A DNA stretch of 64,000 bases. It comes from an uncultured Bacteroidota bacterium. Its GTDB lineage: Bacteria; Bacteroidota; Bacteroidia; Flavobacteriales; Flavobacteriaceae. The DNA lies in NCBI GenBank assembly GCA_902518355.1, contig CABYFY010000005.1, positions 1 to 64,000 of the forward strand, given 5' to 3'. The notes under the pieces were generated by a model. That model was not told the DNA's origin. It did no database searches and saw only the letters and a list, made by a program, of their open reading frames with translations. Positions 9,209-37,218 of this stretch are shown here, in pieces; position 1 is the first letter of the stretch; the number at the start of each line of letters is the position of its first letter. A program made the position numbers and the translations under genes.

Positions 9209-11809
9209 TTAAAAGTTTTGTCCAAATATAAAATGTGTTTCCCAACCATGTTTTGATGATTGGCCTGGTACAGGATCAAATCCATGACCAAAGTCAATAC
9301 CTAAAAGACCAAACTGTGGCATAAATAACCTAACTCCAATACCAGCAGATCTTTTAAGAAGAAAAGGATCAAAATCTTTGAAACTATTATATGAAGACCC
9401 CCCTTCAATGAATGTGAGAGCAAATATTTTTGCTTGTTCACCCAGACTTATTGGATACCTTAGTTCAAGTGAATATTTATTATATATAGAGCCACCATCT
9501 TGTGCGGATAGAGATTGATTAGGATAACCTCTCAAAGGTATATTTTCTCTACCATCAAGATTATACATTCCCATTCCATCTCCACCTAGAAAAAATCTTT
9601 CAAATGGAATAACTCCTCTATCATTGTTATATGCACCTAAAAATCCAAATTCAAAAGCAGGTCTTAAAACTAATTTTTTGGTTAAAGCTGTAAACCATTC
9701 ACCTTTGAACTTGATTTTATAAAACTCAAGCCATTTATATCTCTCCTGGTCAATTTCAGCTATTCTATCACCGGCTGATGTATTTGTTGGGTCAACTCCA
9801 AGTTGGTCAACTAAATCATCCCTTTCATCTTTTAAAGCTTTGTAATCTACATCATTAAATGCCGAGTAAGGAAAGGTAAGTTTTGCCGATAGAGTAAAAT
9901 TTGATCCGCCAGTCGGATAAATTGGATCTGTATAAGTATTATTCCTACTTAAAGCTACTGTGTAAGATAAATTATTTGATGATCCGTTTCCAAAAGTAAA
10001 TAATCCAGTATTATATTCATTAAGATCATAGTACTGAAAACCAATAAATTGAGACAGTGTAAAGTAATCATCTGGAACAGTAAGTCTTTTAGCTAAACCA
10101 ACTGAAACACCAGAAATATTAAAATACCTTGATTTATCTGCGGTATAGTTATATGGATTAAACATAAACTGTTTAGTTTGTGAGAGTTGAACAGAGAATT
10201 GAACAGGTCTTTTACCACCTAACCACGGTTCGGTAAAATTAAAACTATTAACTGTGTAAAATCTACTTGCCTGTAATCTTAAAGCAAGTCTTTGGCCATC
10301 ACCCATTGGTATCGGGGTGTAAGCTTCTTTTTTGAAAATATCTTTAATAGAAAAATTATTAAATGACAATCCTATAGTACCTATAAATCCACCACCACCA
10401 TAACCACCTTGAAGTTCAATTTGACTAGATCCAGTTTCAACAAGAGTGTATTCCAAATCAACTGTTCCATCATTAGGATTTATATTTTTAAAATCAGGAG
10501 AAATCAATTGTGGATCAAAAAAACCTAATTGACCTAGCTCTCTTAATGACCTAAAAACATTAGCCTTACTGTAAAGCTGACCAGGTCGTGTTCTGATCTC
10601 TCTGTAAATTACGTGATCGTTTGTTTTGTTATTACCTACGACAGATATTTTATTGAAGTATGCAGGTTTTCCTTCGTTAATTCTTATTTCTAAATCTATA
10701 ACATTACCATCAGCATTTACCTCAACTGGTGTTATAGATGAAAAAAGATAACCGTTATTTTGATATAAATTACTTAAATCATCAGCATCTGGATCAGATC
10801 TATCAGCGATTCTTTTTTCTAATTCAACTCCATTATATGTGTCTCCTTCTTTAATTTTTAATATTTGATTTAGTTGCTGATCTGTGTATACACTATTGCC
10901 TAAATATTCTATTTTTCCAAATGTGTATTTAGAACCTTCGATTAGCGAGATTGAAACATCAATCTGCTGATCATCATTATTTAATATTGTATCAGAAACA
11001 ACTCTTGCGTCTCTAAAACCATTTTCTTTATACTTATCGACTAAGCTGGCAAGGTCTTCTTTGAAATCATCAGGAACATATTTTGATCTCTTGAAAATTC
11101 TATAAAATTTTCTTTTTTTAGTGTTTTTCATCGCTTTTTCTAGAGTCTTAGATTTAAGCTCACTTATTCCCTCAAATTGTATTTTGTTAATCTTTATTTT
11201 ATTTCCTTTTTTGATATCTAAGGACATTTTGACTTTTGATTTTTTTGAGGAATCAATTACTTCTTCTGTTTTAATGATTACTTTGGCGTTTAGAAACCCT
11301 TTTTTTCTGTATTTATTTTCTAAATAATTTTTGGTGGTGGTAATTAGATTTTCTGTTACTTTTACCCCTGTCTGAAGTTTATTTTCTTTTATTATTTCTT
11401 CAATTTTTCTCTTTTTAACTCCAGTAATTTGTAAATCAGTTAATTCAGGCAAGTCGTATAATTCAATTTCAATATCAATCACCCCATTTTCAATGTTAGT
11501 TTTATAAACATCAACAGAACTAAAAAGGTTTGAACCCCATAGTTTTTTTATTGCATTACTAAGTTTTTCACCAGGGATACTTATTGCATCACCTTCTCTA
11601 AGCCCTGAAAAAGTTACAATTGTTATCGGACTAAAAGAAGTATTACCAGATACCTCAATTTCTCCGATAGTATATCTTTCTATATTATTTTGTGATAGAG
11701 ATAAGTTTGAAAACAAAAGTACTAAGGTCAGTAATATTAACTTAATACTCTGAAAGCGCTTTTTATTTACGCCTTTTATTTTATTTAATCTGTTCACTAG
11801 TTTTTCCAA
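9209..11809 (-). CDS. bamA: Outer membrane protein assembly factor BamA
   Basis: 866 residues: a signal sequence (hydrophobic LILLTLVLLFSNLSLSQ), POTRA repeats through about residue 440 (IERYTIGEIEVSGNTSFSP, ITGVKKRKIEEI, FGKIEYLGNSVYT, FNKISVVGNNKTND), then the 16-strand barrel with the lid-loop region FERFFLGGDGMGMYNLDGRENIPLRGYP and a C-terminal aromatic (FGQNF). BamA inserts beta-barrels into the outer membrane. The start is uncertain: TTG at 11809 overlaps uppS by 29 bases, and a GTG at 11797 also keeps the signal peptide. It is flanked by uppS and two OmpH chaperones. Confidence 0.94.
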   Translation of the reverse strand: MEKLVNRLNKIKGVNKKRFQSIKLILLTLVLLFSNLSLSQNNIERYTIGEIEVSGNTSFSPITIVTFSGLREGDAISIPGEKLSNAIKKLWGSNLFSSVDVYKTNIENGVIDIEIELYDLPELTDLQITGVKKRKIEEIIKENKLQTGVKVTENLITTTKNYLENKYRKKGFLNAKVIIKTEEVIDSSKKSKVKMSLDIKKGNKIKINKIQFEGISELKSKTLEKAMKNTKKRKFYRIFKRSKYVPDDFKEDLASLVDKYKENGFRDARVVSDTILNNDDQQIDVSISLIEGSKYTFGKIEYLGNSVYTDQQLNQILKIKEGDTYNGVELEKRIADRSDPDADDLSNLYQNNGYLFSSITPVEVNADGNVIDLEIRINEGKPAYFNKISVVGNNKTNDHVIYREIRTRPGQLYSKANVFRSLRELGQLGFFDPQLISPDFKNINPNDGTVDLEYTLVETGSSQIELQGGYGGGGFIGTIGLSFNNFSIKDIFKKEAYTPIPMGDGQRLALRLQASRFYTVNSFNFTEPWLGGKRPVQFSVQLSQTKQFMFNPYNYTADKSRYFNISGVSVGLAKRLTVPDDYFTLSQFIGFQYYDLNEYNTGLFTFGNGSSNNLSYTVALSRNNTYTDPIYPTGGSNFTLSAKLTFPYSAFNDVDYKALKDERDDLVDQLGVDPTNTSAGDRIAEIDQERYKWLEFYKIKFKGEWFTALTKKLVLRPAFEFGFLGAYNNDRGVIPFERFFLGGDGMGMYNLDGRENIPLRGYPNQSLSAQDGGSIYNKYSLELRYPISLGEQAKIFALTFIEGGSSYNSFKDFDPFLLKRSAGIGVRLFMPQFGLLGIDFGHGFDPVPGQSSKHGWETHFIFGQNF

Positions 11810-28930: not shown

Positions 28931-30634
28931 TTATCTAAATCTTGATTTTTTCTTTTTCTTTGATTTTTTTCTAGAGCTAATTTTCTTTCTTGTTCTTCTT
29001 TTTTCTTCTCTTCGTCTAGGTCTTTCTTCATCCAAATCAATTGAAGTCCCCAAAACAATATCATTACCTCTAAAATCAATCTTTTTAATATTTGACTTTA
29101 ATTCGTCAGCAAAATCTTTGTCAATTTCAAAAAAACTCTGGTATCGGTTGAGTTCAATTTTTCCAATTTCAATATCGTTAGATTTAAGAGCTCTGTTAAT
29201 AATTGAAATAATATCAATTGGTGTTGCTCTGTGTTTTCTTCCAATATTAATCGAAAACCCAGTCATTGATTTTTTGTTTCCTCTTTTTTTCTCTGATTTT
29301 TTACTTCTTTTAGATTGTAGTTTATTAGCTTCTTTATAATAGTTTAAAAATCTGTTAAATTCTACAGAAACAAATCTTTTGATTAACTCATCTCTATCAA
29401 GCCATTCAAGTTTTTGATAAATATCCTTTAAAAATGGTTTTATTTGTTTTTCATCAACTTCAACATTTTCAATTTTATCTATCATTTTATAAAGTTGATT
29501 GGAACAAATTTCCACTCCGGTTGGAACGTCCTTATTTACAAATTTAATCCCTCCCTTTTTTTCAATTGATTTTATTTTTCTTCTTTCACTTTCATTTGAG
29601 ATAGCAATTGAAATCCCGCTTTTACCTGCTCTTGCAGTTCTACCACTTCGGTGGATGTAAACTTCTGGATCATCAGGTAATGAGTAATTTATTACGTGCG
29701 TTATATCATCTACATCTAAGCCACGTGCAGCTACATCAGTTGCAATTAAAATTTGTAATGACTTATTTCTAAATCTTTGCATAACCTCATCTCTTTGATT
29801 TTGAGATAAATCTCCGTGAATAGCATCTGCATTATATCCCTCAGCCATAAATTTATTTGCAATATCTTTTGTGTGTCTTTTTGTCCTACAGAATACTATA
29901 CCATATATATTAGGATTAAAATCGGCAATTCTTTTTAATGCTTCATATTTATTTCTAGAACTAACATTGTATATATGATGCTCAATATTTTTTGCGCCTG
30001 AATTAATTTTGGATACGCTAATTTCTTTTGCATCACTCATGTATCTTTTGGAGATACTTTTAACTTCCTTGGAAATAGTTGCAGAAAAAAGCATGGTTTG
30101 TCGATCGTCTCTTGTTCTTTCTAGTATAAAATCTAAATCATCTTTAAAGCCCATACTTAACATTTCATCAGCTTCATCCAATACGACCTTGTCAACCAAT
30201 TCTAATTTTAAAACTTTTCTTTTGATTAAATCCTTGGTTCTTCCAGGTGTACCAACAACAATATGAACCCCTTTATTTAAAGATTTAATTTGTGTGTCAA
30301 TATTGGTCCCACCATAAACTGCTAAAATTTTTATTCCAGATACATATTTTGAGTAAGTTTCTAAATCTTTACATATTTGAATACAAAGTTCTCTGGTGGG
30401 GCATAATATTATAGATTGTACGTATTTATTTTTTAATTCGGTTTTTTGAATTACTGGTAGTCCAAATGCTGCTGTTTTCCCAGTACCTGTTTGAGCCAGT
30501 GAAATTAAATCCCTGTTTTCAAGTAATAAAAACGGTATTGATTGTTCTTGAACTTCAGTCGGGTTGATAAAGCCCATTTCATTTATGCCTTTACATAAAT
30601 CTTTTGCTACACCAATTTCTTTAAATTTTGACAT
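28931..30634 (-). CDS. DEAD-box RNA helicase (DbpA/CsdA-like)
   Basis: 567 residues. N-terminal Q motif (FINPTEVQEQSIP), AQTGTGKTAAF (motif I), PTRELCIQI, VVLDEADEML (motif II), SAT, and HRSGRTARAGKSG (motif VI) are all present. Near residues 465-540 a DbpA-type RNA-binding domain (FSINIGRKHRATPIDIISIIN) follows. The protein ends in a Lys/Arg-rich, probably disordered tail. Such helicases act in ribosome assembly or cold adaptation. The gene is divergent from the trp operon and convergent with the tRNAs. Confidence 0.92.
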   Translation of the reverse strand: MSKFKEIGVAKDLCKGINEMGFINPTEVQEQSIPFLLLENRDLISLAQTGTGKTAAFGLPVIQKTELKNKYVQSIILCPTRELCIQICKDLETYSKYVSGIKILAVYGGTNIDTQIKSLNKGVHIVVGTPGRTKDLIKRKVLKLELVDKVVLDEADEMLSMGFKDDLDFILERTRDDRQTMLFSATISKEVKSISKRYMSDAKEISVSKINSGAKNIEHHIYNVSSRNKYEALKRIADFNPNIYGIVFCRTKRHTKDIANKFMAEGYNADAIHGDLSQNQRDEVMQRFRNKSLQILIATDVAARGLDVDDITHVINYSLPDDPEVYIHRSGRTARAGKSGISIAISNESERRKIKSIEKKGGIKFVNKDVPTGVEICSNQLYKMIDKIENVEVDEKQIKPFLKDIYQKLEWLDRDELIKRFVSVEFNRFLNYYKEANKLQSKRSKKSEKKRGNKKSMTGFSINIGRKHRATPIDIISIINRALKSNDIEIGKIELNRYQSFFEIDKDFADELKSNIKKIDFRGNDIVLGTSIDLDEERPRRREEKRRTRKKISSRKKSKKKKKSRFR

Positions 30635-30739: not shown

Positions 30740-30747
30740 TATATTTA
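30740..30747 (+). promoter_or_regulatory. Possible -7 element of the trp operon
   Basis: TATATTTA has one mismatch to TAnnTTTG. If used, the transcript would start almost at the leader-peptide ATG (30753), giving a nearly leaderless start. No clear -33 TTTG is seen at the right distance, so the true promoter may lie further upstream. Confidence 0.25.
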
Positions 30748-30752
30748 CATCA

Positions 30753-30809
30753 ATGAAAAAATTACAATTAAATATGTGGTGGTGGAAACATGAAATATTC
30801 ATTTCGTGA
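30753..30809 (+). CDS. trpL: trp operon leader peptide with three consecutive Trp codons
   Basis: An 18-codon ORF, MKKLQLNMWWWKHEIFIS, lies 121 bases before trpE. Three tandem TGG codons (30777-30785) are a strong signature of a tryptophan-sensing leader because Trp is normally rare. An internal ATG at 30774 directly before the Trp run could also serve as start. The stop TGA (30807-30809) overlaps hairpin segment 2. It is too short for ORF callers. See the attenuator entry for the RNA structures. Confidence 0.85.
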   Translation: MKKLQLNMWWWKHEIFIS

Positions 30810-30866
30810 GGTAGTCGCTATATTTTAATTTGAAAAAAGCTTATCATCACGATAAGCTTTTTTTTT
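30789..30866 (+). promoter_or_regulatory. Ribosome-mediated trp attenuator (alternative hairpins)
   Basis: Three mutually exclusive pairings can be drawn by eye. 1:2 pairs CATGAAAT (30789-30796) with ATTTCGTG (30801-30808). 2:3 pairs TTTCGTGA (30802-30809) with TCACGATAA (30847-30855, one bulge), which would be the antiterminator. 3:4 is the terminator at 30833-30866. Segment 1 begins four bases after the Trp codons, so a ribosome stalled for Trp would mask it, free segment 2, form the antiterminator and allow trpEGDCFBA transcription. The logic matches the enterobacterial paradigm. Confidence 0.75.
30833..30866 (+). terminator. Attenuator terminator hairpin
   Basis: AAAAAAGCTTATC pairs perfectly with GATAAGCTTTTTT around the loop ATCAC (30846-30850), followed by a T run to 30866. 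It lies between the leader peptide and trpE, so as an intrinsic terminator it can only be regulatory here. Confidence 0.88.
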
Positions 30867-30930
30867 GTTCATGATTGGTTTTAGTTTGTTTTTTTAACGG
30901 GGGTGTAAAAGCCCCCATTAAGAAGTAAAA

Positions 30931-32328
30931 ATGAAAAAATTTAGATTAAAGACATATAAAAAGAAATTTTTAGTAGACACAATTACACCTGTAAGTGTTT
31001 ATTTAAGAATTAGAGATAAATATCCTAATAGCCTTCTCTTAGAGAGTAGCGATTACAACTCAAATAATAATAGTTTCTCATATATATGCTTTAATCAGAT
31101 TGCATCTTTTGAAGTTTTTGAAGATATTCTATCAACGAAATTTCCTGACAAGTCAAACAATGAAATTTCTTGCTCTAAAGAAAATTTAATCATTGAACTA
31201 CAAAATTTCATAAATCGATTTAAAGTTGAATCTTCTGAATTACCATTCATTAGCAACGGTCTTTTTGGATACACCTCTTATGATGCTGTAAAATATTTTG
31301 AGGATATAGAAATTAGTGCGAAAGATGATTCAGTAAAAATTCCTGATATGTATTATGGTATTTATAAAAATATTATTGCAATTAATCATTTCAAGAACGA
31401 GGCATATATTTTTTGTCATTCTTCAGATGAGCAAAATAATATTGACAAAATATATCAACTTATAAAAGTATCTAGTACAAGTAATTATAAATTTAATTCT
31501 ATTGATGATATAAATTCAAATCTGACTGACAAAGAATTTATAAAACAAGTTAATTATGCCAAGAATCATTGTAAAAGGGGAGACGTTTTTCAACTGGTTT
31601 TATCTAGGCGATTTTCTCAAAAATTTTCTGGAGATGACTTCAATGTATACAGAGCACTAAGAAGTATAAACCCCTCTCCATACTTATTTTATTTTGATTA
31701 TGGAGGTTACAAAATTTTTGGTAGTTCACCGGAAGCCCAACTTGTTATTAAGGAAGAGTTAGCTGAAATTCACCCTATCGCAGGTACTTTTAAAAGAACT
31801 GGAAATGAAACAGAGGATAAAATACTTGCTGAAAAATTACTAAATGACCCAAAAGAAGGAAGTGAGCATGTTATGTTAGTCGATCTTGCTAGAAATGATT
31901 TAAGTAGGAATTGTCAGCTTGTTAAGGTTGAAAAATTTAAAGAAGTACAATATTTCTCTCATGTTATTCATTTAGTAAGTAAAGTGACAGGTAGGCTGGA
32001 TAACAATGATAAAAATTTAAAAATAATTGCAGACACTTTTCCTGCTGGAACCCTTTCTGGAGCACCAAAACACATGGCTATGACATTAATCGAAAAATAT
32101 GAAAAAACTAATAGAGGTTATTATGGAGGTGCAATAGGAATATTAGATTTCAATGGGGATTTTAATCATGCTATAATGATAAGAACTTTCCTAAGTAAAA
32201 ATAACTTTTTGTATTGGCAAGCAGGTGCTGGGATTGTAGATAAGTCTGACGAAAATAATGAATTACAAGAGGTTTATAATAAATTAAATGCATTAACAAA
32301 GTCAATTAAAATGGCTGATAAATTATAA
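30931..32328 (+). CDS. trpE: Anthranilate synthase component I
   Basis: 465 residues; converts chorismate to anthranilate using ammonia from TrpG. The N-terminal LLES motif (residues 36-39) is the tryptophan-binding feedback element, so the enzyme should be Trp-inhibited. The chorismate-binding C-terminal half shows GSSPEAQLVI, HPIAGTFKRTG, and PAGTLSGAPKHMAM. First structural gene of the trp operon, preceded by the attenuator. TrpG starts one base after its stop. Confidence 0.95.
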   Translation: MKKFRLKTYKKKFLVDTITPVSVYLRIRDKYPNSLLLESSDYNSNNNSFSYICFNQIASFEVFEDILSTKFPDKSNNEISCSKENLIIELQNFINRFKVESSELPFISNGLFGYTSYDAVKYFEDIEISAKDDSVKIPDMYYGIYKNIIAINHFKNEAYIFCHSSDEQNNIDKIYQLIKVSSTSNYKFNSIDDINSNLTDKEFIKQVNYAKNHCKRGDVFQLVLSRRFSQKFSGDDFNVYRALRSINPSPYLFYFDYGGYKIFGSSPEAQLVIKEELAEIHPIAGTFKRTGNETEDKILAEKLLNDPKEGSEHVMLVDLARNDLSRNCQLVKVEKFKEVQYFSHVIHLVSKVTGRLDNNDKNLKIIADTFPAGTLSGAPKHMAMTLIEKYEKTNRGYYGGAIGILDFNGDFNHAIMIRTFLSKNNFLYWQAGAGIVDKSDENNELQEVYNKLNALTKSIKMADKL

Positions 32329-32329
32329 A

Positions 32330-32893
32330 ATGAATAAGGTTTTAGTAATAGATAATTACGATAGTTTTACTTACAATTTGGTACACCTAATTAAGGAAAT
32401 GAATTATGATGTAACCGTTGTCAGAAATGATAAATTTAATTTAGATGATATCTCAAAATTTGATAAAATTTTATTATCACCTGGCCCTGGGATTCCCGAC
32501 GAGGCAGGTCTATTGAAAAAAGTAATTGAAAAGTATGGCCCAACAAAAAGTATTCTTGGAATATGTCTTGGCCAACAAGCTATTGCTGAAGTCTATGGTG
32601 GATCTTTGAAAAATTTAGATGAAGTATTTCATGGAATTTCATCTAACATAAACCTTTGTGTAAAAGACGAATCAATTTTTCATGGAATCAAAAATAATTT
32701 TCAAGCAGCTAGATATCATTCATGGGTCGTAGACAATATTTCTGATCAACTTGAAATAACGTCTGTCGATGACAATAATCAAATTATGTCGATAAGACAC
32801 ACCCAATATGATGTTAAGGGAGTTCAGTTTCATCCTGAATCTATTTTAACCCCTTATGGAAAAAAAATTATAGAAAACTGGATTAATAATTAA
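32330..32893 (+). CDS. trpG: Anthranilate synthase component II (glutamine amidotransferase)
   Basis: 187-residue class I glutamine amidotransferase. DNYDSFTYNLVH at the N-terminus, the nucleophile elbow GICLGQQAIAE (Cys), and the C-terminal FHPESILTP with the catalytic His-Glu are visible. It supplies ammonia to TrpE. TrpG is separate from TrpD here, unlike the fused enterobacterial form. Confidence 0.95.
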   Translation: MNKVLVIDNYDSFTYNLVHLIKEMNYDVTVVRNDKFNLDDISKFDKILLSPGPGIPDEAGLLKKVIEKYGPTKSILGICLGQQAIAEVYGGSLKNLDEVFHGISSNINLCVKDESIFHGIKNNFQAARYHSWVVDNISDQLEITSVDDNNQIMSIRHTQYDVKGVQFHPESILTPYGKKIIENWINN

Positions 32894-32894
32894 A

Positions 32895-33890
32895 ATGAAA
32901 GAAATTTTAACAAGATTAATAAATCATGAAAATTTAGATGAAAAAGAATCTAAAGAAATTCTTATTGATATTTCAATGGGAAAATATAATCATGAACAGG
33001 TTGCTTCTTTTTTGACAGTTTTTATGTTAAGAGGAACATCAACAAATGAGCTTATTGGATTTAGAAATGCATTGCTAGAATTATGTGTAAAATTGGATTT
33101 TAGTGATTTTGAAACCATTGATTTGTGTGGCACTGGCGGTGATAATAAAAATACATTTAATATCTCTACCTTGGCATCTTTTGTTACAGCTGGTGCAGGA
33201 ATTCATGTTGCAAAACATGGTAATTATTCCGTTTCTTCAGCTTGTGGTTCATCCAATGTGTTAGAGTATTTTGGTATAAAATTTACAAATGAAGAAGACT
33301 ATTTAAAAACCTGTTTAAATAAGGCTCATATATGTGTCTTACATGCTCCATTATTTCATCCTGCAATGAAAAATATTGCACCTGTGAGAAAGGCACTCGG
33401 AATGAAAACATTTTTTAATATTTTAGGTCCATTGGTAAATCCTTGTCGACCAAATAATCAACTTGTTGGTGTATACGGATTGGATATTCTAAGACTTTAT
33501 AAGTCTGTTTTTGAAACAACTAAGGGATTTAAATATTCAATTGTTCATTCTTTAGATGGCTACGATGAAATTTCATTAACAGGAGATTCAAAAGTTGTTT
33601 CAAATAATAATGAGTTATTAATAAAACCTAAAGATTTTGATTCAAAGATAATTTCCCCTGAAAAAATCTTTGGTGGTAATTCTATTGAGCAAGCTGCTTC
33701 AATTTTTCTTGATGTTTTAAATTTGAGATCTACGAAAGAGCAAACTGATGTTGTTCTTGCAAACTCTGCTTTGGCAATTTCTACTGCAAAAGAAATCGGA
33801 ATTTCCGAAGCTTTTGACTTAGCAAAAGACTCATTATTAAGTAAAAAAGCCCTTCAATCATTTAATACATTAATTGAACTAAGTAAATGA
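32895..33890 (+). CDS. trpD: Anthranilate phosphoribosyltransferase
   Basis: 331 residues; transfers phosphoribose from PRPP to anthranilate. The PRPP site GTGGDNKNTFNIST, KHGNYSVSSACGSSNVLE and the anthranilate-binding segment APLFHPAMKNIAPVRKALGMKTFFNILGPL are present. Starts one base after trpG and overlaps trpC by four bases (ATGA type), indicating coupled translation. Confidence 0.95.
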   Translation: MKEILTRLINHENLDEKESKEILIDISMGKYNHEQVASFLTVFMLRGTSTNELIGFRNALLELCVKLDFSDFETIDLCGTGGDNKNTFNISTLASFVTAGAGIHVAKHGNYSVSSACGSSNVLEYFGIKFTNEEDYLKTCLNKAHICVLHAPLFHPAMKNIAPVRKALGMKTFFNILGPLVNPCRPNNQLVGVYGLDILRLYKSVFETTKGFKYSIVHSLDGYDEISLTGDSKVVSNNNELLIKPKDFDSKIISPEKIFGGNSIEQAASIFLDVLNLRSTKEQTDVVLANSALAISTAKEIGISEAFDLAKDSLLSKKALQSFNTLIELSK

Positions 33891-34672
33891 ATATTCTGAA
33901 TAAAATAATTCGCCATAAAGAAAATGAGATAAATCATCTCAAACTAAATTATACCACAAGTCAATTAGAGTCTTCTTTATTTTTTGATAGAGAAACTATT
34001 TCTTTAAAAAGCAAATTAAAATCAAGCAGCTCTGGAATAATTGCAGAGCATAAAAGAAAATCTCCATCAAAAGATATCATCAACAATAAACTAAAAATAC
34101 AAGAGGTTATTAGCGGCTATCAAGATGCAGGAGTTTGTGGAATTTCAGTTCTAACAGACTTTGATTTCTTTGGTGGGACAAATGATGATTTAAAAATTGC
34201 TAGAGAAATTTTTGAAGGACCAATTTTAAGAAAAGATTTTATTTTAGATGAATTTCAAATTGTTGAATCAAAATCATTAGGCGCTGATGTAATTTTATTA
34301 ATCGCTTCAGTTTTAAGTAAACAGAAAATTTTCAAGCTGTCCAAGCTAGCTAATGAGTTACATCTAGAAGTCTTGGCAGAAATTCATAATGAGAATGAAC
34401 TAGAAAAGGTAATGAATCCATATATAGATTTGATTGGAGTGAATAATAGGGATTTAAAAATATTTAAAACAGATATAAACATCTCAAAAAACATCTCAAA
34501 AAAAATTCCTAGTGATTTTTTAAAGATTTCAGAGAGTGGAATTGACAATTATAATACTGTCAAAGATTTAAGGAAATATGGATTCAATGGTTTTTTAATA
34601 GGGGAATATTTTATGAAAACAATAAATCCCGGACTGGCCGCAAGCGAGTTTATAAAAAAAATTGAAGTATGA
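33887..34672 (+). CDS. trpC: Indole-3-glycerol phosphate synthase
   Basis: 261-residue TIM barrel. IIAEHKRKSPSKDII (catalytic Glu and Lys), ILRKDFILDEFQIVES, GVNNRDLKIFKTDI and the phosphate site ISESGIDN are all visible. It converts CdRP into indole-3-glycerol phosphate. The gene overlaps trpD and trpF by four bases each and is not fused to trpF. Confidence 0.94.
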   Translation: MNILNKIIRHKENEINHLKLNYTTSQLESSLFFDRETISLKSKLKSSSSGIIAEHKRKSPSKDIINNKLKIQEVISGYQDAGVCGISVLTDFDFFGGTNDDLKIAREIFEGPILRKDFILDEFQIVESKSLGADVILLIASVLSKQKIFKLSKLANELHLEVLAEIHNENELEKVMNPYIDLIGVNNRDLKIFKTDINISKNISKKIPSDFLKISESGIDNYNTVKDLRKYGFNGFLIGEYFMKTINPGLAASEFIKKIEV

Positions 34673-35277
34673 AATTAAAAATTTGTGGCATGAAATATAA
34701 TGATAATATCAGTTTAATTTCAAAATTAAACCCTGATTATATGGGTTTTATATTTTATAATAAATCAAAAAGATTTTTCGATAATGAACCAATACCAAGG
34801 GTTAATAAAAATATTAAAAAGGTAGGTGTTTTTGTTGATCCTGAAATCGAATACCTAAACTTTATTATTAAAAAATATAGTTTAGATTTAGTACAATTAC
34901 ATGGAAATGAGAAACCTGATTTTATATCACAAATTCGAGATGTTAAAATAATAAAAGCATTTTCAATTGATAAAAATTTCAATTTTAATTCAACCGAAAA
35001 TTATATGAAATGCGATTATTTTCTTTTTGATACAAAAGGAAAATTACCGGGGGGTAATGGAATATCTTTTGACTGGAAAATTTTAACAAGCTATAAATTT
35101 AATAAACCATATTTCTTAAGTGGCGGTATTGGTTTACACAATATAGAGGAACTAAAAGACTTTTTTAGTTCAACAATTTCAAAATACTGTTTTGCAATAG
35201 ATATTAATAGTCACTTTGAAATTGAGTATGCAAAAAAAGATTATGAATTAATTAAAAATTTTAAAAATGAGTTATAA
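34669..35277 (+). CDS. trpF: Phosphoribosylanthranilate isomerase
   Basis: 202 residues. [14 protein letters not shown] carries the catalytic Cys of the KICG motif; [20 protein letters not shown] and the C-terminal [14 protein letters not shown] phosphate loop complete the family pattern. It overlaps trpB by 11 bases, the largest overlap in the operon. Confidence 0.94.
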
Positions 35278-36448
35278 TGTAAATTCTAAAGGTTACTATG
35301 GAGATTTTGGAGGCGCATATATTCCAGAAATGCTCTTACATAATATTGATGAGCTTAAAGAAAATTATATTAAAATAATGAGTGATGATAGTTTTCAGCA
35401 AGAATTTAATCAATTGCTTAAAGACTATGTTGGTAGGCCATCTCCTCTATATTTTTCAAAAAATTTATCTGAAAAATATTCAGCTAAAATATATTTAAAA
35501 AGAGAAGATCTAAATCACACAGGAGCACATAAAATTAACAATACAATAGGACAAATAATACTTGCAAAAAGATTAAAAAAATCGCGAATTATTGCTGAAA
35601 CTGGAGCAGGACAACATGGAGTGGCTACAGCAACAGTTTGTGCTTTAATGGGTTTAAAATGCATCGTATATATGGGTGCCACTGACGTTAAAAGACAGGC
35701 TCCAAATGTTGCAAGAATGAAAATGTTAGGAGCTGATGTCATTCCTGTAACATCTGGAAGCTCAACTTTAAAAGATGCAACAAATGAAGCAATGAGAGAC
35801 TGGATTAATAATCCAATTGATACTCATTATATTGTTGGGAGCGTTGTTGGACCGCATCCTTTTCCTGACATGGTTGCTAGATTTCAGTCTGTTATTTCAA
35901 AAGAGATAAAAGAACAACTTCTTTTAGCTGAAGGAAGAAATTACCCAGATTATTTAATCGCTTGTGTAGGTGGAGGAAGTAATGCGGCTGGAACGTTTTA
36001 TGATTATTTGGACGATGAAAGAGTAAAAATTATTTGTGTTGAGGCATCTGGAAAAGGAGTAAATTCTGGAAAATCAGCTGCGACTACAAAATTGGGTAAA
36101 ACGGGAATTATACATGGGAGCAAGACCTTACTTATGCAAACCGATGACGGTCAAATAACTGAACCCTATTCAATTTCAGCTGGATTAGATTATCCAGGAA
36201 TAGGGCCTATGCATGCTAATTTGTTTACCTCAGGAAGAGGTGAGTTTATTTCAATAGATGATGATGAGGCAATGTCAGCTGGTTTGCAATTGTCACAACT
36301 TGAAGGAATTATTCCTGCTATTGAAACCTCACATGCTTTAGCAGTATTTGATCATAAAAAATTTAACTCGACTGATATAATTGTTCTAAACCTTTCAGGT
36401 AGAGGTGATAAAGATCTAGAGAATTATATAAATTATTTTAATATATAA
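35267..36448 (+). CDS. trpB: Tryptophan synthase beta subunit
   Basis: 393 residues; PLP enzyme joining indole and serine. The PLP-binding Lys89 lies in [10 protein letters not shown], with the phosphate-binding [10 protein letters not shown] and [13 protein letters not shown] segments. It is the TrpB1 type normally partnered with TrpA. Its stop and the trpA start share one base (TAATG). Confidence 0.96.
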
Positions 36449-37218
36449 TGAACAGAATTAGCAAAACTCTTAAAGAAAAAGACAATATTTTGTCAATATA
36501 TTTTACCGCAGGATTTCCTGAATTAAATAGTACAATTGAAATAATTAAAAATTTAGTTTCTGCTGGTGTGGATATGATTGAAATTGGTTTACCATTTAGT
36601 GACCCTTTAGCTGATGGTGAGACTATTCAGATGAGCTCAAAAATTGCATTAGATAATGGAATATCAACAAATATTCTATTTGAACAACTCAAAGAAATTA
36701 GAAATCATGTCAATATTCCTTTAATAATCATGGGGTATTTCAATCCTATTTTCCAATTTGGAGTTGAGGAGTTTTGTAAAAAGTGTAATGAAATTGGAAT
36801 TGATGGCTTAATAATTCCTGACTTGCCAATTGATATTTACCTTTCCAATTATAAAATAATTTTTGAAAAAAATCAACTTCAAAATATATTTTTAATTACT
36901 CCGCAAACTAATAAAAAAAGAATAGAATATATAGATAAAAATAGCGATGGATTTCTTTATGTTGTAAGTTCATCAAGTATAACTGGCTCTACAAATAAAT
37001 TCGATGAAAGCAGTATAAATTATTTCAAAAAATTAGAAAAAATGAATTTATCTACACCTAAAATTATTGGTTTTGGAATTTCAGATAATGAAAATTTCAA
37101 TACTGCTAGTAAATACTCAAAGGGTTGTATTGTGGGCAGCGCTTTTATAAAATACATTCAAAAAAATGGTTTAAAAAACATCCACAATTTCATCAATCAA
37201 ATTAAAATAGTAAATTAA
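36448..37218 (+). CDS. trpA: Tryptophan synthase alpha subunit
   Basis: 256-residue TIM barrel that cleaves indole-3-glycerol phosphate and channels indole to TrpB. IEIGLPFSDPLADGETIQMSS contains the catalytic Glu and Asp; GFLYVVSSSSITGS and GFGISDNEN follow. It is the last gene of trpEGDCFBA. Its TAA stop shares TTAA with the stop of the convergent sugar dehydrogenase, with no separate terminator visible. Confidence 0.95.
   Translation: MNRISKTLKEKDNILSIYFTAGFPELNSTIEIIKNLVSAGVDMIEIGLPFSDPLADGETIQMSSKIALDNGISTNILFEQLKEIRNHVNIPLIIMGYFNPIFQFGVEEFCKKCNEIGIDGLIIPDLPIDIYLSNYKIIFEKNQLQNIFLITPQTNKKRIEYIDKNSDGFLYVVSSSSITGSTNKFDESSINYFKKLEKMNLSTPKIIGFGISDNENFNTASKYSKGCIVGSAFIKYIQKNGLKNIHNFINQIKIVN

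Follow-up and report, generated by a model that had tools for sequence, protein, structure and literature searches.

Predicted ribosome-mediated attenuation in front of the trp operon of an uncultured flavobacterium and related Bacteroidota

Relationship to described tryptophan leaders

Bacteroid-trp, the Rfam family RF01692 'Bacteroidete tryptophan peptide leader RNA', is listed in Table 1 of Weinberg et al. 2010 (PMC2864571). A passage on F. psychrophilum notes a Bacteroid-trp RNA before the trp operon of this species (PMC6414381), and part of a further paper gives clues to leader-peptide attenuation in front of its amino-acid operons (PMC9723704). These attenuators resemble the one described here in possessing a Trp leader before the trp operon; in the passages concerned, their alternative structures and regulation are known as predictions. 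Attenuation across bacteria was reportedly treated by Lopatovskaya et al. 2010.

In the open-licence papers, no experimental test of the mechanism of trp attenuation in Bacteroidota was found. In the original prediction for the 64,000-nucleotide stretch of DNA analyzed here (the window), little experimental description in this phylum had been noted. The element is less unknown than was assumed there, since it has been catalogued computationally as Rfam family RF01692 and predicted in F. psychrophilum. While Bacteroid-trp as a motif and the predictions in F. psychrophilum were already known from the open-licence literature, the present analysis adds comparative support for the alternative structures, a ruler counted from the Trp codons, a probable leaderless start in some lineages, a wide distribution and tandem copies.

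At the default threshold, Rfam gave no leader match in the window. In a relaxed search, RF01692 (Bacteroid-trp) matched over its full model length with 39.9 bits (E 0.0014), which is below the cut-off of 49. This cut-off was passed by ten of 20 loci (L001-L020) comprising the window and relatives. A model (R1) trained on 44 leaders of flavobacteria outside the window's genus recognized the window leader with 80.5 bits (E 6.8e-14), the sole match in its own genome at E 0.01. A looser R1 search of the window also listed the opposite strand of the terminator (33.8 bits). Since R1 matches below about 45 bits are doubtful and several of them merely represent a terminator read on its opposite strand, the tally of 97 out of 296 genomes is not taken as a frequency. 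A leader with Trp codons directly upstream of trpE in a member of the Bacteroidota, as is characteristic of RF01692, is present in the window. Due to this leader and the homology to flavobacterial members revealed by R1, the window element can be regarded as a sub-threshold member of RF01692. It shares with the family the position before trpE and the UGG run. The RF01692 model, however, stops in the 5′ arm of the terminator (last consensus bases GGCUUGUC) and for this reason omits the 3:4 hairpin and the 2:3 pairing.

The proteobacterial family Trp_leader (RF00513) reached 13.6 bits in the window at a cut-off of 41. Thus, the term 'E. coli-style' used in the original prediction fits the logic of the element but not its RNA-family membership. 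As to the logic, E. coli trpL (NC_000913.3) likewise encodes a leader peptide in which Trp codons stand in tandem, and its RNA can adopt three alternative helices including a terminator; segment 2 lies about 15-18 nt past the last Trp codon in both trpL and the Bacteroidota leaders (in E. coli its GGGC is 15 nt away, as read directly from the sequence). On the other hand, the antiterminators of most relatives of the window, unlike that of E. coli, draw on the terminator loop and 3′ arm. The window moreover belongs to a phylum in which no Shine-Dalgarno site is expected, such sequences being absent in members of the Bacteroidota according to a passage in PMC6847099, and its leader mRNA is probably leaderless. 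A leaderless Trp leader, whose RNA starts at the AUG, is also known from the description of Sinorhizobium meliloti trpL in part of PMC7298713, where, by contrast, the host is an alphaproteobacterium and only trpE(G) is controlled. Other weak Rfam names (Thr_leader, BTnc060, STnc370 and others) lay far below their cut-offs and were dismissed as chance matches.

Leader, predicted helices and probable promoter box in the window

The window stems from a draft genome of 1.42 Mb (27 contigs, 79.7% complete). Its TrpE is at most 67% identical to TrpE of named Flavobacteriaceae among the best 80 of 585 named Bacteroidota loci. The predicted attenuator is located between a divergent minus-strand gene (28931-30634), which from its translation we take to be a DEAD-box helicase, and the start of trpE at 30931. 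The controlled operon begins with trpE (30931-32328, plus strand), followed on the same strand by trpG, trpD, trpC, trpF, trpB and trpA (32330-37218). The trpD, trpC, trpB and trpA models and a trpG/papA subfamily model of NCBIfam passed their curated cut-offs; trpE and trpF also had trp models as best matches, yet with scores below the cut-offs of those models. With this restriction, the gene order trpEGDCFBA given in the original prediction agrees with the best NCBIfam matches. A second strong hairpin, devoid of a T tail, is situated right before the trpE start codon (30890-30925). It was also found in all four other loci of the genus that were folded (L003, L005, L007 and L009), the stem sequence of its counterparts in L007 and L009 being quite different. 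A His-codon-run match at 10390, one of 25 matches in the own genome, was rejected as a leader because it is antisense within a long gene, presumably BamA-like as judged from the translation.

The leader ORF (30753-30809, plus strand) consists of 18 codons and a TGA stop, encoding the putative peptide MKKLQLNMWWWKHEIFIS, and contains three tandem TGG codons at 30777-30785, exactly as originally described. Segment 1 starts at the fourth base past the last Trp codon, which also matches the earlier description. Eight pairs between CAUGAAAU (30789-30796) and AUUUCGUG (30801-30808) had been proposed to form the 1:2 hairpin. They are present, but in the minimum-energy fold they make up only the tip (30789-30808) of a longer hairpin (30766-30830), where a stretch that contains the first two Trp codons (30766-30782) is paired with 30815-30830. 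The 2:3 antiterminator (30804-30852) had to be revised: instead of eight pairs, nascent folding and duplex prediction gave 14, formed by 30804-30819 and 30838-30852 and interrupted by one bulge and one internal loop, and the predicted helix extends through the terminator loop into the terminator 3′ arm. The 3:4 intrinsic terminator (30832-30866) comprises a hairpin at 30832-30864 with its loop at 30846-30850 and a run of nine T (30858-30866). The 13 pairs originally counted are its Watson-Crick pairs; one G-U pair brings the total to 14.

Folding of 30753-30870 yielded the long 1:2 hairpin and the 14-pair terminator with -31.6 kcal/mol, compared to -16.4 kcal/mol (SD 3.1) for shuffled sequences (z -4.8, 0/200 shuffles as low). 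The 2:3 helix appeared in the truncated nascent stretch 30801-30853, that is the RNA beyond a stalled ribosome and before the rest of the terminator 3′ arm. Its minimum-energy fold contains all 14 pairs (-11.4 kcal/mol, z -2.35, 6/200 shuffles as low). When the terminator 3′ arm was included (30801-30868), the terminator prevailed with -18.0 kcal/mol. Because the whole terminator beats the antiterminator in energy, antitermination must be set during transcription, by timing. The untranslated nascent RNA (30753-30853) folds into the 1:2 hairpin, the stability of this stretch not being unusual (z -1.3). According to predicted folds and covariation, the 1:2, 2:3 and 3:4 helices are mutually exclusive; these and a leader ORF with tandem Trp codons that is predicted to be translatable are characteristics of an attenuator.

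A probable -7 promoter box, TATATTTA (30740-30747, plus strand), was identified from its sequence and the published position of such boxes. It lies 5 nt upstream of the leader AUG and differs from TAnnTTTG at the final base. The box of F. psychrophilum is placed at -12 to -5 in the corresponding section of PMC9723704, and for F. johnsoniae, 4 or 5 nt between box and start are given as a mark of probable promoters in a passage of PMC6847099. At a gap of 4 nt, RNA would therefore begin at the AUG, and the window transcript is predicted to start about 1 nt upstream of it. By itself, TANNTTTR is frequent in the window (308 matches, approximately the number expected by chance). Of 108 leaders, 78 have a TAnnTTTG up to 90 nt upstream of the Trp codons, versus 5 of 104 control windows farther upstream. 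In 105 leaders the ATG is in the usual position, and 89 of these have TAnnTTT(G/A) up to 40 nt upstream of it. In these 89 leaders, which include related loci several times over, whose starts are predictions and for which TTTA was accepted alongside TTTG after the window's own box was known, the gap to the ATG was never shorter than 4 nt; it amounted to 4 nt in 11, 5 nt in 14 and 6 nt in 2 leaders and was longer in the majority (62). Counting TTTG boxes only (76 leaders), gaps of 4, 5 and 6 nt occurred in 8, 8 and 2 cases. The class with 4-5 nt contains all nine fetched loci of the window's genus, the window itself having 5 nt. Since the box ends 4-5 nt upstream of the leader AUG, the leader mRNA is probably leaderless in this genus and in some other relatives. 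Leaderless mRNAs account for 5.5% of the mapped mRNAs of F. psychrophilum in the relevant part of PMC9723704.

Conservation and covariation in related loci

A first set of 30 loci was fetched with TrpE from 60 related genomes including the window's own; the named set comprised the best 80 of 585 named Bacteroidota loci by TrpE match, and a third batch of 71 further regions brought the total to 181 trpE-upstream regions. Leaders were defined by a fixed rule (start codon, in-frame TGGTGG or TGG-N3-TGG, terminator within 30-115 nt). A Trp-rich leader with a terminator was present in 167 of the 181 regions, other classes included, versus none of the 181 reverse complements. In all 30 loci of the first set, trpE is preceded by a small ORF in which Trp codons are adjacent, and an ORF with WW or W-x-W was found in 76 of the best 80 of 585 named loci. 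The four exceptions were L076 and L109, whose sequence upstream of trpE extends over no more than 34 and 5 nt, L110 with one Trp codon and a terminator, and L040, where no leader was found. Two of the 14 regions in which the fixed rule gave no match had almost no upstream sequence; L133 escaped the automatic rule, its WWW leader being visible by eye. Forty wider regions were picked by hand and are not a random draw. A Trp-rich leader with a terminator was found in 16 of 18 with a distant TrpE type (below 340 bits, kinship at phylum level only), in one of two phylum-level kin with a nearer TrpE and in 16 of 20 that share class, order or family with the window. It is likewise present in all of the 30 loci that matched best in the wider TrpE search. 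At its own cut-offs, Rfam recognized none of 19 distant loci and none of 20 further regions, though all of them have a rule-defined leader. Judged by these predicted leaders, the trp attenuator occurs far more widely than RF01692. A TrpE scan of viral contigs confirmed no relative.

TGGTGG occurs in 167 regions, and 153 of them have an open ATG 3-12 codons before it in the frame of the Trp codons, compared to 2 and 1 for the other two frames. The Trp run is maintained as codons. With in-frame Trp codons and hairpins kept in the relatives, the lack of conservation that would have spoken against the original prediction was not observed. Some leaders (L104, L105, L107, L152, L153, L170, L171 and L183) contain interrupted runs such as WSWRW, WLW, WAWFW or WYWSYW instead of WWW.

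The pairing tests covered 108 leaders from 105 loci. Every segment 2 was combined with its own and with all other terminator 5′ arms and loops. Five of the 110 loci were outside the pairing and ruler tests, namely L028, whose WWW leader is there but whose terminator is below the score threshold, L040, L110, L076 and L109. Distance also excluded extra ORFs of L074, L089 and L102, as well as the upstream one of the two units of L107, which was checked by hand. Own 2:3 partners revealed a mean of -14.1 kcal/mol versus -10.6 kcal/mol (SD 0.25) for shuffled ones (z -14.2, 0/20,000 shuffles), and a second set of 63 leaders gave z -13.7 (0/20,000). As the shuffles leave some relatedness, the safer figures are those of 14 representatives with less than 60% mutual identity (-13.9 versus -9.8 kcal/mol, z -5.6, 0/20,000) and of the 16 other-class leaders of the second set (z -4.85, 0/20,000). 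Examples of 2:3 helices are GUGAACAGC with GCUGUUCAC in L074 and GUAAGAUU with AAUCUUAC in L088. The antiterminator takes at least three bases of the terminator loop in 88.9% of the 108 leaders and enters the 3′ arm in 80.6%. For 1:2 pairing, z was -12.4 with all leaders and -3.6 with the 14 representatives (5/20,000). Without the Trp codons, values of -10.5 (all) and a modest -2.8 (representatives, 78/20,000) were obtained. Control segments 60 nt upstream of the Trp codons (z +1.7) and, at 50 loci, 50 nt downstream of the terminator (z +0.5) showed no preference for their own partners.

Across the 108 leaders, pairing of segment 2 begins at a median distance of 18 nt past the last Trp codon (IQR 17-18, SD 3.2). 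The stop codon is located 6-45 nt past this codon, and the SD of the segment 2 distance rises to 10.4 if counted from the stop. In the 14 representatives, the SD was 5.1 from the Trp codon (values 5 to 25) versus 14.4 from the stop. The ruler is looser in the second set (median 17, IQR 13.5-21) and in other classes (median 21, IQR 18-24). A near-constant distance between Trp codon and segment 2 despite a variable stop is what a stalled-ribosome ruler predicts. When a ribosome whose leading edge reaches 9-13 nt beyond its A-site codon was modelled on the last Trp codon, the antiterminator retained at least 90% of its energy in 108 of 108 leaders, while a ribosome modelled at the stop codon removed at least half of this energy in 105-106; with an edge of 15 nt, the corresponding figures were 98 and 107. 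Thus, in the modelled geometry, segment 2 would stay free as long as the ribosome is stalled and would be covered once it has reached the stop codon.

Mechanism, alternative explanations and tandem units

The window element is most probably (about 0.93) a ribosome-mediated transcription attenuator sensing charged tRNA-Trp. This reading, which had originally been proposed, is strongly supported in the comparison with relatives by the in-frame Trp codons, the covariation of the 1:2 and 2:3 helices and the fixed distance between Trp codons and segment 2. The sequence and its comparison with relatives reveal the leader and its reading frame, helices that exclude each other and covary, the fixed distance and the terminator. 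Beyond these features, we infer the transcription start, ribosome stalling, real termination or readthrough and the response to tryptophan. Transcription would begin at or just upstream of the leader AUG. If tryptophan is ample, a ribosome at the stop codon would mask segment 2, and the 3:4 terminator would halt RNA polymerase before trpE. If it is scarce, the ribosome would stall on the UGG run with its leading edge leaving segment 2 free. The latter could then pair with the nascent terminator 5′ arm, the loop and the first 3′ bases, so that no terminator is formed and trpEGDCFBA is transcribed. In the absence of translation, the 1:2 hairpin would sequester segment 2 and the terminator would form.

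It is conceivable that the terminator is an ordinary one which acts constitutively on an upstream or short transcript, that trpE is transcribed from its own promoter and that the Trp ORF is incidental. Intrinsic terminators are indeed common, and loci L031-L110 harbor 102 unrelated ones of similar strength. These terminators, however, do not pair with their own upstream sequence (z -0.9), whereas the leader terminators do, and leader and terminator go together in the great majority of regions (167/181), which renders this explanation extremely improbable. A leader RNA that senses a protein or a ligand (TRAP-like, T-box, riboswitch) and whose Trp ORF is untranslated would be in line with the existence of stable alternative structures, and leaders of these types control trp genes in other phyla. 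TRAP control of trp genes is dealt with in part of PMC4027176. Such a leader RNA would not account for Trp codons maintained in frame or for a distance to segment 2 that is counted from them, and the T-box model of Rfam scored 9 bits in the window at a cut-off of 93. The interrupted runs, too, keep TGG codons, though this is an illustration only, as the rule demanded in-frame spacing. This possibility is thus very unlikely, if slightly less so than a constitutive terminator.

With the same low probability as the latter, the attenuator could be a non-functional relic in the genome-reduced genus of the window. Tryptophan synthesis looks patchy there: a full-length TrpE of the window type was found in only 8 of 20 same-genus genomes (G001-G020, two copies in G005), part of which may be due to missing sequence as these genomes are 56-86% complete. 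Against a relic, no part of the element has been lost in the nine loci fetched from the genus (the window's among them): leader, Trp codons, terminator and 2:3 pairing are present in every one, even where TrpE identity is as low as 77%.

With some reserve, we favor the view that in most of the phylum, in several classes and far beyond the Rfam family, the trp operon is under the control of one ancestral or repeatedly re-made ribosome-mediated attenuator. It would work without Shine-Dalgarno sites, with an antiterminator seeded on the terminator loop and a ruler starting at the Trp codons, would be leaderless in several lineages including the window's genus, with tight coupling of transcription and translation, and would occur twice in series in some lineages. 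On a leaderless leader mRNA, ribosomes would have to load at the very 5′ end and to follow RNA polymerase closely. Provided that the comparison holds, tryptophan synthesis across much of a large phylum lacking Shine-Dalgarno sites is governed by a single attenuator design, and the trp leader would therefore be a ready reporter for leader-peptide initiation and for the closeness of ribosome and RNA polymerase.

Two complete units in series were observed before one trp operon in L024 (2919-3195), L025 (99-364), L104 (2667-2973) and L107 (approximately 2668-2944). Each unit has its own leader, Trp codons, terminator and 2:3 pairing, the 2:3 energies of the two units being -9.8 and -11.3 (L024), -6.9 and -14.2 (L025), -20.4 and -14.4 (L104) and -17.3 and -13.2 kcal/mol (L107). 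Apparent second leaders of L007, L008 and L089 were not counted as tandem, since they are 487-966 nt upstream. In the open-licence papers, tandem attenuators were met with in a description of mgtCBR. L024 and L025 belong to the same genus, of which a third genome (L133) has a single unit. In L110, a decayed-looking leader about 160 nt upstream of trpE has a single Trp codon and has retained its terminator.
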